36,373 nucleotides of DNA, taken from IMG/VR virus record IMGVR_UViG_3300042362_000084, positions 1 through 36,373 of that record; one strand, 5' to 3'. A program made the position numbers and the translations under genes. The notes beneath the pieces were generated by a model. It had not been told where the DNA came from and ran no database searches. It worked only from the letters and a program-made list of their open reading frames with translations. Below are positions 4,964 to 36,373 of the stretch, in pieces (the first letter of the stretch is position 1; each line of letters opens with the position of its first letter). Source of the stretch: a virus.

Positions 4964-5355
4964 GTGAACAATGGTATGTAGTAGACTATGGAGATGACCT
5001 TGTGATAAACGCAGGAACATTCTCGGCAATGGAACTACTAATCAAGAAACTACACGGCGGGCTAGCCCTAGTGAAGTATGACGACCTGACACCCCAAATG
5101 AAACGGGGAGAAACAATCTACCAAAAAGGAGAAACAAAAATGAAAGACCTACGACCACTCATTGACGAGATGATAAAGCACGCCAGCATTGTGATGCACG
5201 AAATGAGCGACCTGCTCGAAGCATACGAGATGCCGGACTACGCAGAGAAATGTGACGCCCTAGACGGGCTATGGACAGCAATCGACAACTACCTCAAGGA
5301 GGTGAAACTAGATGACGGAGAAACAGACGAAATGGAAAGTTTGGGTTTGTCCTAA
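4960..5355 (+). CDS. Hypothetical protein (131 aa) with a possible internal start
   Basis: 131 residues. ATG at 4960 overlaps the previous stop (ATGA). Residues 1-60 (EQWYVVDYGDDLVINAGTFS...) look like one small domain. Residues 61-131 form an acidic helical part (LIDEMIKHASIVMHEMSDLL). An in-frame ATG at 5140 has its own strong site, AAAGGAGAAACAAAA, so a 71-residue C-terminal protein may also be made. The 3' end overlaps the 5312 zinc-ribbon gene by 44 bases and carries its AAGGAGGTGA ribosome binding site. Neither part is recognised. Confidence 0.7.
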   Translation: MSEQWYVVDYGDDLVINAGTFSAMELLIKKLHGGLALVKYDDLTPQMKRGETIYQKGETKMKDLRPLIDEMIKHASIVMHEMSDLLEAYEMPDYAEKCDALDGLWTAIDNYLKEVKLDDGETDEMESLGLS

Positions 5356-5449
5356 ATGTGGCAACGCATTCAAGACGGAAATAGAACTATCCGAACCACC
5401 AACCTGCTACAACCACAACGGCAAAGTCTACAAGATGGTCAAAAAGTGA
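5312..5449 (+). CDS. Zinc-ribbon miniprotein (45 aa)
   Basis: 45 residues: ATG at 5312, TGA at 5447-5449. The ribosome binding site AAGGAGGTGA is among the best in the window. The protein reads WKVWVCPKCGNAFKTEIEL then PPTCYNHNGKVYK, a CxxC pair followed by Cys and His that could complete one zinc site. It is in a different frame from the gene it overlaps. It may be a small adaptor or regulator binding nucleic acid or a host protein; this is inference. It is the last gene before the quadruplex/hairpin region. Confidence 0.7.
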   Translation: MTEKQTKWKVWVCPKCGNAFKTEIELSEPPTCYNHNGKVYKMVKK

Positions 5450-5486
5450 CAAAGGTTGAAACCCCCTTTGATAACCTACCGACCAC

Positions 5487-5514
5487 GGGGGAGGGGGACT
5501 ACAGGGGGTGGGGG
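5487..5514 (+). repeat. G-quadruplex motif, copy 1 (loops A, ACTACA, T)
   Basis: Four runs of five G (5487-5491, 5493-5497, 5504-5508, 5510-5514) are separated by loops of 1, 6 and 1 bases. The short loops and long tracts predict a very stable quadruplex on the plus (coding) strand or its RNA. The same layout with central loop ACTATA recurs at 35717-35736. Confidence 0.85.
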
Positions 5515-5525
5515 AAGGACCCGAA

Positions 5526-5553
5526 GCGCAACGCCACACAGGTGGCGTGGCGC
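5526..5553 (+). other. GC-rich hairpin after G-quadruplex copy 1
   Basis: Stem GCGC, one A/G mismatch, then ACGCCAC pairing with GTGGCGT around loop ACAG, closing with GCGC. It is 11 pairs in all, 11 bases after the quadruplex. No T-tract follows, so it is not a standard terminator. Confidence 0.7.
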
Positions 5554-5582
5554 ACCAGTACTAGCAGACACAAAGGAGAGAT

Positions 5583-6032
5583 GTGACAAAGACCCCCGAA
5601 GGCTGTGGTATTCTAGAACACGACGAGTTGTGCTTGTGTGATGTTGTCATCACAGACAAGACACCCGATAGTTATCTGGCAATACCACACGAATACCCCA
5701 ACGGAGAAGCAATCGCATACTACGGTAAGTGGAACGGCACAATCGAACACTGGTTTCAGATTTACGAAAAAGCCACCACAGGATTGCGACAGCACTACGC
5801 AGAACTTGAAGCAGAAATGAGTATTGACAAACGCAAGATAGAACCACCGAACGGTTGGAACTTCAAACGCAGAATGCCCGACGAAGTATACGAGTACCTA
5901 GTCAACGGTATCCGCAGAGGTATCAAGCCTACAGCCCTGAGAAATGAACTCATTCAAGAGTTCGACTACACGATAGACAGGTCGTATGTGACCAAGTTGA
6001 AAGACCGACTAAAAGCAAAAGGAGTTCTGTGA
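5583..6032 (+). CDS. Hypothetical protein (149 aa) with possible C-terminal helix-turn-helix
   Basis: 149 residues from GTG at 5583. The site AAAGGAGAG lies 4 bases upstream. An ATG-TGA start-stop pair (5581-5586) overlaps this start in another frame. The N-terminus has a Cys cluster (GCGILEHDELCLC). The C-terminal 55 residues (DEVYEYLVNGIRRGIKPTALRNELI...YVTKLKDRLKAKG) look like a helix-turn-helix with a recognition helix near the end. It opens the replication block and overlaps the nuclease gene by four bases. It could be an origin-binding or regulatory protein acting on the structured region just upstream; this is inferred from position. Confidence 0.65.
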   Translation: MTKTPEGCGILEHDELCLCDVVITDKTPDSYLAIPHEYPNGEAIAYYGKWNGTIEHWFQIYEKATTGLRQHYAELEAEMSIDKRKIEPPNGWNFKRRMPDEVYEYLVNGIRRGIKPTALRNELIQEFDYTIDRSYVTKLKDRLKAKGVL

Positions 6033-23263: not shown

Positions 23264-24301
23264 CTATGCGAGTGCGCTTGCTGCGTAGTAACGGAATCTG
23301 ATGTAGCCAGCCTGACCAGCAGAACCAGCAGTATTTGTGCTGTTGCCACCCGAACCATAGGTGTTGTTTGAACCTTGTACACCCTGAGAACCAGTACCTT
23401 GATTGATGTATGCGGCTCCACCTCCACCAGCACCACCTGCACGAGTTACCCCACCTGAAGTAATAGATACTCCAGTACCACCAGTACCGCCTACTGTTGT
23501 TGAACCATTTGCTGTTCCTGCTGAACCTGCTGCACCAGCACCGCCTCCACCACCATAAGCAGTATTGGTTAATCCTTTACCGCTACCGTCAGGGTCAAAC
23601 TGTGCTGTACCACCAGCAGCATTTCCGTTTCCTGATGTGCCATTGGCGTTACCGCCACTTGCAGTGAGGCTTGTCAAATCTCCTGTCAAGGTTGTATTGC
23701 CACCGCTAGTTGCGCCACTGCCAGTATCTCCAGTGCCACCTGCGCCAACAGATGTTGTGATGCTACGAGAACCTGTCATAGAGCGTGAAGAAACGCTTTG
23801 GTAACCACCACCACCTGCGCCTGCGCCGAAGCCACCACCGCCACCACCACCAAACATAATAATGTCCAAAATGCTGACCGCTACAGCAGAACCGCCAGTC
23901 GGGGTGACAGTCGGGATAGTAAATGTGGTGCCACCCGAAGTGGACCGTTCGTAGACCTGAATGTTCCAAGTTGTAAACGACAACGAAGACGAAGTTGTAG
24001 TGCCAACATCGTTGGTTGCGACACAACGGAAATAGTAAGTTGTGTTCGTAGACAAGCCCGTGATATTGGCGTATGAAGAAACAGCCTGCCCCGTGATAGG
24101 TGTAGTGGCGGCATTAACTTCAGTAAAGCTACTGAAATCTGATGCGGTGCTGTACTGGAACTTGACTGTTGTTGAGTAGCCATTAGCGTCTACCGTTGCA
24201 TTCAGTGTGGCTAGTTCTTGGTTGAAGTTAGATGCTGCGTTAAGTGCAACCGTTGGTGGAGGCCCCACAGACGAAGCAACAAGCCCGTGTCTGATAGGCA
24301 T
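23264..24301 (-). CDS. Tail adhesin: fibronectin type III domain plus polyglycine-rich domain
   Basis: 345 residues; start at 24301 shares one base with the previous stop codon. Residues 14-110 form a fibronectin type III-like domain (ATLNATVDANGYSTTVKFQY; ITGLSTNTTYYFRCVATND). Residues 150-330 are Gly-rich with runs of six to seven Gly (MFGGGGGGGFGAGAGGGGY), like the polyglycine sandwich domains of phage adhesins and glycine-rich surface proteins. The end IRFRYYAASALA is a short beta tail. It is probably the distal host-binding tip, next to the collagen-like fibre. The role is inferred from architecture. Confidence 0.75.
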   Translation of the reverse strand: MPIRHGLVASSVGPPPTVALNAASNFNQELATLNATVDANGYSTTVKFQYSTASDFSSFTEVNAATTPITGQAVSSYANITGLSTNTTYYFRCVATNDVGTTTSSSLSFTTWNIQVYERSTSGGTTFTIPTVTPTGGSAVAVSILDIIMFGGGGGGGFGAGAGGGGYQSVSSRSMTGSRSITTSVGAGGTGDTGSGATSGGNTTLTGDLTSLTASGGNANGTSGNGNAAGGTAQFDPDGSGKGLTNTAYGGGGGAGAAGSAGTANGSTTVGGTGGTGVSITSGGVTRAGGAGGGGAAYINQGTGSQGVQGSNNTYGSGGNSTNTAGSAGQAGYIRFRYYAASALA

Positions 24302-25485
24302 CAGGAACTCAAATCACCAATAAGCACATAATTGTGGTGGCTAACACAAAACAAAGTAGCAGAAGAGTACCTGGCACGAAGCTTCAAACCAGGAGTTGCA
24401 TTAAGCGTCATTCCACCTGAGCTAGTTACAGTTATCTGTCCAGTTCCAAGTTGAAGAATGTCAATAGATTGACCAGCAGTTAAACCAGTAGAACCATTAA
24501 CTGTCACAGTAACAGCAGAGGAATTGTTAAATGTAACCATTTTACCAAGGTCGCTAGAATTAAGACTGTAAGAAGTTCCTGTTTGAGCGTTAATTATTTG
24601 CGTCGAGTTAAACCCACCCGTAGCACCCGTAGCACCAGTAGGCCCGATAGGTCCTTCAGGTCCGGTCGGGCCAGTAGCTCCTGTGGCACCTGTAGGTCCA
24701 GTAGGACCCTCAGGCCCTGTCGGGCCAGTCGGGCCAGTATCACCAGTAAGACCAATAGGCCCCTGCGGTCCAGTTGCACCTGTCGCACCTGTCGCACCTG
24801 TAGGACCAGTATCTCCTATTGGACCAGCAGGCCCTGTCGCACCAGTAGCTCCAGTAGGACCGGCTGGACCCACATCTCCCTGCGGTCCCTGTGGACCTGT
24901 TGCACCAGTTAAACCAATAGGACCAGTATCACCAGTTAAACCAATAGGACCTTGTGGACCCGTTGCCCCTGTCGCTCCAGTCGCTCCAGTGGCCCCTGTA
25001 AGGCCCGTAGGGCCCTGTGGACCCGCATCCCCTGTGTCGCCCTTCAAACCTTGTGGTCCGGTCGCTCCTGTGGCTCCTGTAGGGCCTGTATCACCTGTAA
25101 GGCCAATAGGGCCAGCAGGGCCTGTGGCTCCCGTGGCACCCGTAGGACCCGTCAAACCAATTGGTCCTTGCGGCCCCGTCGCACCCGTAGGGCCAGTCAA
25201 ACCAGTAGGACCAGTCGGACCCGTAGCACCAGTAGCACCAACAGCACCCGTAGCTCCTGTCAAACCAATCGGCCCCTGTGGGCCCATTGGTCCAGTAGCA
25301 CCCGTCAAACCAATAGGTCCCTGAGTACCACTAGAATACGGCAAAGCATTCCAGTTATTAACGCCATCACCAACCTTGAATTTGCCAGTGTCGTATTCGT
25401 ACCCGGGCTCACCTTGAGCAAGCACAGGATTAACACTAGTCCATTGGGCGGCAGTTCCACGTCGATATTGTATTTGTACAGCCAT
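24301..25485 (-). CDS. Collagen-like tail fibre protein (394 aa)
   Basis: 394 residues. Residues 1-50 ([37 protein letters not shown]) match the small N-terminal module common in phage fibres and tropism proteins. Residues 54-290 are an almost unbroken Gly-X-Y repeat ([24 protein letters not shown]), giving a collagen-like triple helix of about 79 triplets. Residues 291-394 are a beta-rich knob ([18 protein letters not shown]). Such fibres are trimeric rods reaching to the host surface. The repeats invite length changes by recombination. Strong call. Confidence 0.85.
24616..25326 (-). repeat. Collagen-type coding repeat
   Basis: About 237 Gly-X-Y codons give short, imperfect 9- and 18-base DNA repeats (glycine-proline-threonine, glycine-alanine-threonine triplets). 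Synonymous codons vary between units, so it is diverged rather than freshly duplicated. It also opens long antisense reading frames with no other support. Confidence 0.8.
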
Positions 25486-35102: not shown

Positions 35103-35212
35103 TCATCCTCAACGAATCGTTCAATAGGTTTACGTTCAGCAGCACAAAACGGGCATTCATCCCACTCCTCGGGATATTCCTCCCCACACCGCTTACATTC
35201 AATCAGGTCCAT
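35093..35212 (-). CDS. Zinc-ribbon miniprotein between terminase genes (39 aa)
   Basis: 39 residues: ATG at 35212 shares its first base with the TerS stop, TAA at 35093-35095 lies inside the TerL start region (10-base overlap). MDLIECKRCGEEYPEEW and DECPFCAAERKP show two CxxC pairs, a complete zinc site, followed by an acidic tail. It is tightly coupled to both terminase genes, which suggests a packaging accessory or regulatory role; this is inference. Confidence 0.72.
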   Translation of the reverse strand: MDLIECKRCGEEYPEEWDECPFCAAERKPIERFVEDEWN

Positions 35213-35640
35213 CAGACCACCTTTAAAGTACGGGTCTCCTTCTCCCGAGAAGCCACACTAGCAATCAAAGCATCCAACTCAGCATCAGACAACTCAGTTA
35301 ACTTACGGTCAGACTTAACCTCCACCGTAGGCGGAGCCATACGGTTAGTGGCCTGCAAGTACAGTTGAGCAGACTTGACATCATTATCCTGAGTAGCCTT
35401 GTTATAAAGCATATCAAGAACAGCCTGTGTACGCTCAGGAGAACCCTGGATATCATCAACCCTGTCTTGCCACTGCTGACGGAAATTAGGCTTCTTCTCC
35501 CACCGGCGTAAAGTCTTAACATCAACCTTTAAATGCTCGGCCATCTTGTTCTTAGACGGCGGCACACGCTCAGACGGTGCCGTACACAACCAATCCAAAT
35601 ACTCCTGCTGTGGCTGCGTTAAAACCAACTCTTCTTTCAT
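35212..35640 (-). CDS. terS: Terminase small subunit
   Basis: 142 residues. The start at 35640 (MKEELVLTQPQQEYLDWL) is chosen since the longer in-frame ATG at 35673 would code through the start-abutting element. KNKMAEHLKVDVKTLRRWEK is a helix-turn-helix for DNA recognition, followed by helical oligomerisation (RTQAVLDMLYNKATQDNDVK, SAQLYLQATNRM). TerS binds the packaging site; its own site may be the adjacent control region. First gene of the minus arm. Confident by context and HTH. Confidence 0.82.
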   Translation of the reverse strand: MKEELVLTQPQQEYLDWLCTAPSERVPPSKNKMAEHLKVDVKTLRRWEKKPNFRQQWQDRVDDIQGSPERTQAVLDMLYNKATQDNDVKSAQLYLQATNRMAPPTVEVKSDRKLTELSDAELDALIASVASREKETRTLKVV

Positions 35641-35663
35641 AACCCTATAGGCAACTTCGTTAC
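35638..35663 (-). promoter_or_regulatory. Start-abutting element (GTAACGA..TATAGGGTT-ATG), upstream of TerS
   Basis: Minus strand: GTAACGAAGTTGCC then TATAGGGTTATG. Here the TAA is not the stop of any known gene, so its conservation is not explained by a stop codon. Best candidate for the first late promoter or for an unusual ribosome binding leader. Confidence 0.6.
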
Positions 35664-35716
35664 CTGGACGCACATAAATGTGCTAGATAAATGAGAATGA
35701 TTCCTAGGTTACGTTT

Positions 35717-35736
35717 GGGGGGGACTATAGGGGGGG
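35717..35736 (+). repeat. G-quadruplex motif, copy 2 (central loop ACTATA)
   Basis: Seven G (35717-35723), ACTATA, seven G (35730-35736). Read as four G3 tracts it has loops G, ACTATA, G, the same 1-6-1 layout as copy 1 at 5487-5514, whose central loop is ACTACA. Both lie on the plus strand and are followed by a strong hairpin. Confidence 0.85.
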
Positions 35737-35744
35737 TAGCCAGA

Positions 35745-35765
35745 AAACCGTCCCTGAGACGGTTT
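35745..35765 (+). other. Hairpin after G-quadruplex copy 2
   Basis: AAACCGTC pairs perfectly with GACGGTTT around loop CCTGA (8 bp), nine bases after the G tracts. The T-run is only three long, so it is an unconvincing terminator. Confidence 0.7.
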
Positions 35766-35786
35766 CAACCAGGTTTAGCGGATACA

Positions 35787-35814
35787 TCGGGGCGAGCCGT
35801 AAGCGAAGCCCCGA
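35787..35814 (+). other. GC-rich hairpin before the first plus-arm gene
   Basis: TCGGGGC pairs with GCCCCGA (7 bp) around a 14-base loop. It ends five bases before the start-abutting element of the 35840 gene and may fold in its leader or act as a protein-binding site. Confidence 0.55.
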
Positions 35815-35818
35815 ATAT

Positions 35819-35842
35819 GTTACATCTTGGCTATTAGGTATG
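35819..35842 (+). promoter_or_regulatory. Start-abutting element (GTTACAT..TATTAGGT-ATG), upstream of the first plus-arm gene
   Basis: Plus strand: GTTACATCTTGGC then TATTAGGTATG. It is a weaker match to the four minus-strand copies (GTAACGA, TATAGGG) but keeps spacing and the position against the ATG. It is the only copy in the plus arm. Confidence 0.45.
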
Positions 35843-36133
35843 AATATCGAACACCTAAAGCCGTGGACTGAAATCCGTGTGACGTGGCGTGATGCCTACG
35901 CCCCGCACAGCGGATGGCATGAAGTAGACGAATACAGCCCCGAAGATGCTGTAGCAGTTACTATCGGAAAGTACTGGCCTGACTGTCAAGAGAACTATTT
36001 GACTACAGCGGGTACGGTGTTTGAGTATGAGGGTGACTCACCGAAAACGGTGGGCGACATTAACCACATCCCGTTGGGATGGATACTAAAGATTGAGGTC
36101 ATCAATGCCAGCCAAACCTACCCCCAAGCGTGA
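35840..36133 (+). CDS. Hypothetical protein (97 aa), first gene of the plus arm
   Basis: 97 residues. WTEIRVTWRDAYAPHSGWHE, VDEYSPEDAVAVTIGKYWP and GTVFEYEGDSPKTVGDINHI suggest a small beta-rich protein. IPLGWILKIEVINASQ ends it. No signal peptide or metal site. TTAGGT is its only candidate ribosome site. The first gene of the early arm, it could be a host-takeover factor; function unknown. Confidence 0.72.
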   Translation: MNIEHLKPWTEIRVTWRDAYAPHSGWHEVDEYSPEDAVAVTIGKYWPDCQENYLTTAGTVFEYEGDSPKTVGDINHIPLGWILKIEVINASQTYPQA

Positions 36134-36373
36134 CTCACGTCTAGCACGTGCAGGTGTTAGCGGATACAACAAGCCGAAGCGTACACCTGACCATCCTAAA
36201 AAGTCCCACATTGTTGTAGCCAAATCCGGCAGCCAAATCAAAACCATCCGATTCGGCCAGCAGGGTGTAAAAGGTTCACCCAAGAAAGCAGGGGAATCAA
36301 CAGCCTATGCCAATCGCCGGAAATCCTTTCAGGCACGGCATTCCAGCAACATCGCCAAAGGACCCATGTCGGC
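36105..36373 (+). CDS. DUF6321-like basic protein (5' part; continues at base 1)
   Basis: 90 codons are visible, and the gene continues at 1-46 after joining the ends. ATG at 36105 overlaps the previous gene by 29 bases, with TTGAGGTCATCA upstream. SGYNKPKRTPDHPKKSHIVV, KTIRFGQQGVKGS and KSFQARHSSNIAKGPMSA match from memory the DUF6321 pattern widespread in marine and freshwater phages. The body is basic; the acidic tail past the junction is unusual for the pattern. Function unknown, possibly nucleic-acid binding. Confidence 0.8.
   Translation, partial: MPAKPTPKRDSRLARAGVSGYNKPKRTPDHPKKSHIVVAKSGSQIKTIRFGQQGVKGSPKKAGESTAYANRRKSFQARHSSNIAKGPMS

Follow-up and report, generated by a model that had tools for sequence, protein, structure and literature searches.

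A viral DNA of 36,373 nt (positions 1 to 36,373 of IMG/VR record IMGVR_UViG_3300042362_000084; this whole stretch is referred to here as the window) carries two G-rich elements on one strand, one near the terminase small subunit gene (terS) and the other ahead of replication genes. What do such elements do in a phage genome, and which of their properties is conserved? The original prediction described them as two copies of a composite element with an ACTAYA centre, possibly serving as a packaging site, a replication origin or an RNA/DNA switch.

Two G-run elements and their surroundings

Direct reading of the window places copy 1, GGGGGAGGGGGACTACAGGGGGTGGGGG (G5-A-G5-ACTACA-G5-T-G5), at nt 5487–5514 and copy 2, GGGGGGGACTATAGGGGGGG (G7-ACTATA-G7), at nt 35717–35736. 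Both are on the plus strand and each has a hairpin downstream, as predicted. The features of the two regions are listed below.

5446–5477, plus strand: putative promoter-like pair of copy 1, GTGACA (5446–5451), a 20-nt spacer and TAACCT (5472–5477), aligned with relatives L495–L501
5487–5514, plus strand: copy 1, a four-tract quadruplex sequence with 1-6-1 loops, on the replication operon's sense strand; position kept in 20 relatives
5526–5553, plus strand: hairpin GCGC-aa-CGCCAC-acag-GTGGCG-tg-GCGC, 11 nt after copy 1
5583–6032, plus strand: first gene after copy 1, 149 aa, function unknown, opening the replication block
35212–35640, minus strand: terminase small subunit gene, divergent from copy 2 (phrog_2538 and phrog_7344, terminase small subunit)
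35692–35706, no strand assigned: imperfect inverted repeat TGAGAATGATTCCTA (TGAGAATGATTCTCA in relatives), possibly operator-like
35710–35715, plus strand: weak -10-like hexamer TACGTT, 1 nt before the G block
35717–35736, plus strand: copy 2, an equal-arm G-run pair that also reads as four G3 tracts with 1-6-1 loops; present in 74 of 74 TerS relatives
35737–35747, plus strand: A-rich linker ending in GAAAA, from G block to hairpin
35745–35765, plus strand: hairpin AAACCGTC-cctga-GACGGTTT, 8 nt after the copy 2 G block
35788–35813, plus strand: second hairpin, CGGGGC...GCCCCG, between the copy 2 element and the first rightward gene
35840–36133, plus strand: first rightward gene after copy 2, 97 aa, function unknown

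Copy 2 lies in the divergent gap beside terS and copy 1 before the replication genes, in agreement with the placement first given; the block that starts with the 149-aa gene includes an exonuclease, a DnaB-like helicase, a primase and RusA. Although two mechanical ORFs of the window (5356–5586 and 5456–5641) overlap copy 1, relatives share no open frame across it, and the non-coding location claimed originally is therefore the better reading.

The two copies are the only four-tract G3+ sites on the plus strand of the window, and the only exact (0 mismatches) sites of GGGGGACTAYAGGGGG. When up to three mismatches are allowed, GGGGGACTAYAGGGGG occurs at three sites in the window, compared with 0.16 expected from shuffles, none of which reached three; the occurrence of both elements is far beyond chance. 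Both fit the canonical pattern of intramolecular G-quadruplexes (four G3+ tracts, loops of 1–7 nt), and an RNA folding model of copy 1 gave −84.0 kcal/mol with G-quadruplexes and −50.4 kcal/mol without. The G3-tract sites on the minus strand at 25024–25042 fall within a collagen-like Gly-X-Y gene (24301–25485), the coding repeats of which explain them.

Some neighbouring features were also seen. A short ORF just before copy 1 (5312–5449, MTEKQTKWKVWVCPKCGNAF...), under the 60-aa ORF cut-off, specifies a zinc-ribbon-like protein. The inverted repeat just before copy 2 has a 7-1-7 form, TGAGAATGATTCTCA, that resembles Fur/Zur boxes (window 35692–35706; L509, L522 and L533), and a wider repeat, CGTNACCT...AGGTNACG, encloses it in some of the relatives. 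Rightward genes cross both window ends (1 and 36373), and the distance from copy 2 to copy 1 across these ends is about 6.1 kb, compared with 7.4 kb in the close relative L504 (39600 bases). The window is probably a near-complete genome from which a few kb are absent.

Conservation of the paired G runs

Relatives were gathered by protein only (TerS or TerL), to avoid selection on the motif. Among relatives of the window's clade (TerS identity 66–100%), a G-run pair on the strand opposite terS was present in all 74 assessable TerS-selected loci. It is a plain pair with a six-base loop in 68 of these, while the remaining six, which form one subclade, have G6-A-G4-TA-G4-A-G6 or G6-AA-G3-TA-G3-AT-G6 at the same place. 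In a marine clade, likewise TerS-selected, the pair lies within 130 nt before terS in 76 of 78 loci and within 250 nt in 77, and takes the form G5-TAA-G5, G6-TAA-G6, G7-CAA-G7 or G6-AGAGAGGGAGA-G6 in loci without longer loops. The third lineage has a TerL of the T7-like phrog_38, and here the pair was found no more than 90 nt after the end of the TerL match in 75 of 75 TerL-selected loci, which represent one clade (TerL 93–100% identical) and not 75 independent cases. The TerS profiles of the window and marine clades were not alike by hhalign. Elsewhere in the same loci, with both strands counted, G-run pairs numbered 33 in 315 kb (window clade), 18 in 268 kb (marine) and 0 in 313 kb (T7-like). 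Paired G runs stand beside packaging genes in at least three groups of aquatic phages.

All carriers are IMG/VR contigs. Isolate phages related by TerL, TerS or a lysine-rich protein were compared, and the element was absent from the isolate regions read; the regions read without it are those of P-SCSP2, CRP-125, P-SCSP1h, HTVC134P, ProddE, Hodr, MEP301, C72C1 and two Manatee Spring records. The lysine-rich proteins are small and of unknown function (phrog_7595, phrog_4689 and phrog_14910), and in both the window and marine clades they recur no farther than about 2 kb downstream of the element (window 36093–36371; L138, 3049–3375; L426, 5690–5941). In other viruses (L168, L184, L191, L192, L217 and L222), several G7-N6-G7-like units with ATTATA, AATAAA or AAAAAA centres are clustered in polypurine stretches, possibly a further lineage of the element.

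Genomes of the window clade carry two copies, while the scanned marine and T7-like genomes have one main copy each. Seven window-clade contigs have both copies on the same strand, 6.4–7.8 kb apart. No relatives came up when the 149-aa gene behind copy 1 was used for a motif-blind search, and copy 1 was therefore tested through 17 TerS-selected contigs. Thirteen of these were long enough to judge, and all 13 had a second pair about 7–9 kb after copy 2, counted across contig ends. Together with the seven contigs, 20 relatives therefore support two sites. The loops of copy 1 in relatives are ACTACA, ACAACA, ACCCTA, AACCAACGGA or AAA, and with the last two the arms are not always equal. Loss of the motif from the two equivalent positions in relatives had been named as the result that would speak against it; both copies are kept on the same strand, with some 6 to 9 kb between them.

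What is conserved is the equal length of the two G runs, not ACTAYA. Arms were equal at 45 of 47 distinct sites in the window clade, 63 of 64 in the marine clade and 65 of 66 in the T7-like clade (173 of 177 in all), counts that are inflated by sequence relatedness, the pattern being seen nonetheless in three lineages and at several run lengths. Shuffling of arm lengths among sites gave maxima of 41, 40 and 54 in 5000 trials, and one of the four exceptions (L702) is cut by a contig end. T7-like sites whose flanks are similar have the arms G6/G6, G7/G7, G8/G8 and G9/G9. Over all lineages, run length goes from 5 to 9 and the loop from 3 to 12 nt (TAA to AGAGAGGGAGA), loops of 8–12 nt mostly holding further G tracts. 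Relatives substitute TAA, AACACAA, ATAAA, AGGGGTAGGGGA and others for the centre and keep equal G arms, so the idea that ACTAYA is itself the recognised feature is not supported. As the arms change together and the loop is free, both runs appear to pair in one structure rather than to form a protein site of fixed spacing, and the sequences point to a quadruplex, a hybrid quadruplex, a G-hairpin dimer or a mirror-repeat triplex as candidates.

The prevalence of particular centres was seen in wider scans. The 16-mer GGGGGACTAYAGGGGG gave at least 120 stretches in IMG/VR. A scan of IMG/VR for isolated G7-(six non-G)-G7 found AYYAYA centres at 100 of 121 distinct viral sites (49 ACTATA, 25 ATTATA, 15 ATCATA, 7 ATTACA, 2 ACTACA and 2 ATCACA); in bacterial and archaeal genomes, scanned likewise, the centres were broadly mixed. 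Seven-base centres yielded a further large set, G7-AACACAA-G7. From the AYYAYA and AACACAA sets it follows that ACTAYA is one of several clade-specific loops. G5-ATCAYA-G5, meant as a control pattern, was not neutral and brought up the marine and salt-marsh clade, a genuine second population. Matches of the 16-mer in the context GTCCCCC...GGGGGACTAYAGGGGG were discounted, since their opposite strand encodes PP[IV]VP linkers. In these (L005, L010, L012, L016, L026, L039, L115 and others), GTCCCCC before GGGGGACTAYAGGGGG corresponds to a PP[IV]VP.GG linker in the reverse reading; this coding motif, strongly conserved in ORFs of about 250–400 aa, is unrelated to the G element.

Promoter sequences and downstream hairpins

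The marine clade has the layout TTGACA-N18-hexamer-G run, of the sigma-70 type. Of 61 distinct upstream sequences, 58 have a TTGACA whose end lies 22–26 nt ahead of the G run; the best -10, mostly after an 18-nt spacer, stops 0–2 nt short of the run in 55 of 69, thus putting the first G run at the expected discriminator and the second in the first transcribed bases. The distance from the element to terS varies from 3 to 87 nt, and the marine element therefore belongs to the promoter and not to the ribosome-binding site. Relatives of copy 1 show TTGACA-N19/20-TAnnCT followed, after 9–15 nt, by the G block, while the window has a weaker version, GTGACA-N20-TAACCT, ending 9 nt before the block. 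At copy 2, a block A.GTWAC....T is kept before G7 in 36 distinct relatives and can be read as an extended -10. No TTGACA partner, and no -35/-10 pair at a fixed distance, was found at copy 2 of the window clade, nor a promoter at a fixed offset from the G pair in the T7-like clade, so that the predicted placement was seen for the marine clade and copy 1 and not for these two. A reading of the ACTATAGGG core as a promoter of a T7-like RNA polymerase was rejected, as the core does not recur: a 35.5-kb T7-like contig matches it just once, at the element, and P-SCSP2 not at all.

Downstream of copy 1, the window folds with z = −3.0 (RNAfold), and relatives place different stems at the same position (z −1.8 to −5.2), a hairpin being present in all eight copy 1 sequences. 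The window's own copy 2 hairpin is modest when taken alone (z = −1.3); the 47 distinct copy 2 relatives have a median z of −3.3, with z < −2 in 41. In 12 distinct same-frame copy 2 sequences, all seven pairs hold in every one, and three pairs are changed on both sides (CG/UA, GC/AU and CG/UA); neither the number of doubly changed cells nor the covariation score was reached in any of 500 shuffles. For two short-loop hairpins the MAFFT gap fell in the stem, and these were recounted with N set in the loop. Hairpin loops including GTAA, GCAA and CTAA recur, and in the linker after copy 2 an A occupies position 9 in 36 of 36 distinct relatives and position 8 in 33 of 36. Rfam gave nothing near any gathering score for nt 35600–35900. 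The marine clade is without such a hairpin before its closely following gene, and the composite is therefore a feature of the window clade, while the G pair is the wider feature. The functional composite element proposed originally is upheld to the extent that a quadruplex-type sequence with compensating stems is present at both positions, but its hairpin is limited to the window clade.

Possible roles and known systems

Both elements can be described as members of a family, Gn-loop-Gn (n = 5 to 9, equal arms), found on the sense (non-template) strand in regions that control transcription, chiefly next to terminase genes. The reading preferred here, for which the case seems evenly balanced, is that of a promoter-embedded G-quadruplex of the non-template strand, or a DNA:RNA hybrid quadruplex, acting on transcription, with fold and function both deduced from sequence. 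Opening by RNA polymerase, or transcription itself, would free the non-template G strand, and its two runs could then fold into a G-quadruplex, alone or with a G run of the nascent RNA. Such a structure might keep the bubble or R-loop open, or make the polymerase pause, and would set the output and timing of the downstream operon, i.e., the late operon in the marine clade and, for the window, the early and replication operons. In the window clade, the leader hairpin would probably be read as RNA.

The basis of this reading is the position of the element, its equal arms and free loop, a promoter offset that is fixed in the marine clade and at copy 1, and, in the window clade, a hairpin preserved by compensatory changes. 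The quadruplex part is supported by the four-tract replacement G6-A-G4-TA-G4-A-G6 at the same place. Against it, G5-TAA-G5 and G6-TAA-G6 do not show the four-tract pattern and would fold weakly as single-strand quadruplexes, so an intramolecular quadruplex is not the whole story there; a DNA:RNA hybrid quadruplex needs no more than two G tracts from the DNA (PMC3905843). In vitro, the output of T7 RNA polymerase was increased, via stable R-loops, by a non-template G4 sequence downstream of the start site (PMC7341879), while at the mitochondrial G tract CSB II a hybrid quadruplex stops transcription and can influence replication (PMC5027508). Counting against a role in transcription are copy 2 and the T7-like clade, with their lack of a -35/-10 pair at a fixed distance, and the nearness to terminase genes in all three lineages, which also fits packaging. 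A bolder proposal, with a modest chance of being right, is that a convergent Gn-loop-Gn element in at least three unrelated and abundant aquatic phage groups couples transcription of the terminase operon to replication or packaging via a four-stranded DNA:RNA structure.

The roles suggested originally can be weighed on the same evidence. The fixed place after promoter elements favours a transcription-linked role, while packaging, the chief rival, keeps some plausibility since the element adjoins terminase genes in three lineages. The G-run pair would then be bound by TerS, or cut near by terminase, the folded or stiff G block marking pac or cos. It lies beside terS in two lineages and 20–60 nt after TerL in the T7-like lineage; in T7 itself, the right end and concatemer junction lie after TerL, and a single main copy in the scanned marine and T7-like genomes is as expected of a packaging signal. 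Nevertheless, this explanation is unlikely. In every assessable window-clade genome the replication operon has a second copy, 6–9 kb distant, and two cut sites would result where one per genome beside the terminase is expected of pac or cos; the orientation of the element to terS is opposite in two lineages; and in the marine clade it is locked to the promoter (0–2 nt) and not to terS (3–87 nt). A replication origin, at which the transcribed G block gives a hybrid quadruplex or R-loop and its RNA primes DNA synthesis, is less likely again. Copy 1 does head the replication genes, copy 2 lies in the main non-coding gap with hairpins and inverted repeats around it, and the T7 phi-OR origin also lies after TerL. 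The precedent is the hybrid quadruplex of CSB II, with its effects on transcription and replication (PMC5027508). Yet the GC skew of the T7-like contig shows no turn at the element, the marine element heads a late operon, and no iterons or initiator gene were identified adjoining the element.

Two further explanations are both improbable. A sequence-specific DNA-binding protein could read the two G runs as direct half sites of an operator, as the two half sites, the promoter overlap and the inverted repeat next to copy 2 might suggest, but both arms change length together and loops go from 3 to 12, so that neither half-site spacing nor helical phase is kept, and no protein family adjoining the element spans all three lineages. 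The arms could instead act as the mirror repeat of an intramolecular triplex (H-DNA), or as G hairpins dimerising from two molecules. Equal arms with a free loop are also the design rule for mirror-repeat triplexes and GnLGn dimers, and short loops such as TAA would be accounted for; the four-tract versions (copy 1 and G6-A-G4-TA-G4-A-G6) best fit an intramolecular quadruplex, and five to nine triplets are short for H-DNA.

In the open-access literature, neither the sequence nor a conserved phage element of this kind was found, nor any phage quadruplex promoter alike. Quadruplex-type control elements are already known; no account was found of matched arms evolving at a fixed phage address. Most reported viral quadruplex sequences are statistical. 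Here, over 200 phage contigs have two G runs of the same length at one address, with changing bases both around and between them, and this is evolutionary evidence that the runs act as a pair. A quadruplex-type promoter element of this kind would provide phage biology with a defined and testable case, making the role of G-quadruplexes in phages open to experiment.

The element shares some properties with each of several known systems. Phage pac and cos sites are short, non-coding and adjoin terminase genes, but the window clade has a second copy far from terminase and the marine element is promoter-locked. The leader RNAs of lambda nut and HK022 put occur twice in a genome, as structured elements with hairpins, each at the head of an operon; this two-leader layout is shared, but here the G block is constant, and no boxA or boxB was noticed. 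Mitochondrial CSB II has a single A between its runs and differs in length among humans, compared with loops of 3–12 nt and equal arms in the phage element. Both have a long non-template G tract in a control region, and the co-transcriptional hybrid quadruplex that CSB II forms with nascent RNA (PMC5027508) is likewise proposed for the phage element. The promoter-proximal putative hybrid-quadruplex sequences (PHQS) of vertebrates (PMC3905843) also have at least two non-template G tracts near the transcription start, and both window copies and most relatives fit the PHQS pattern (at least two G tracts of 3+, loops of 1–7 nt). The phage elements differ from these (PMC3905843) in being single sites with a fixed promoter offset and equal arms across genomes, and in that their hybrid quadruplex is putative.
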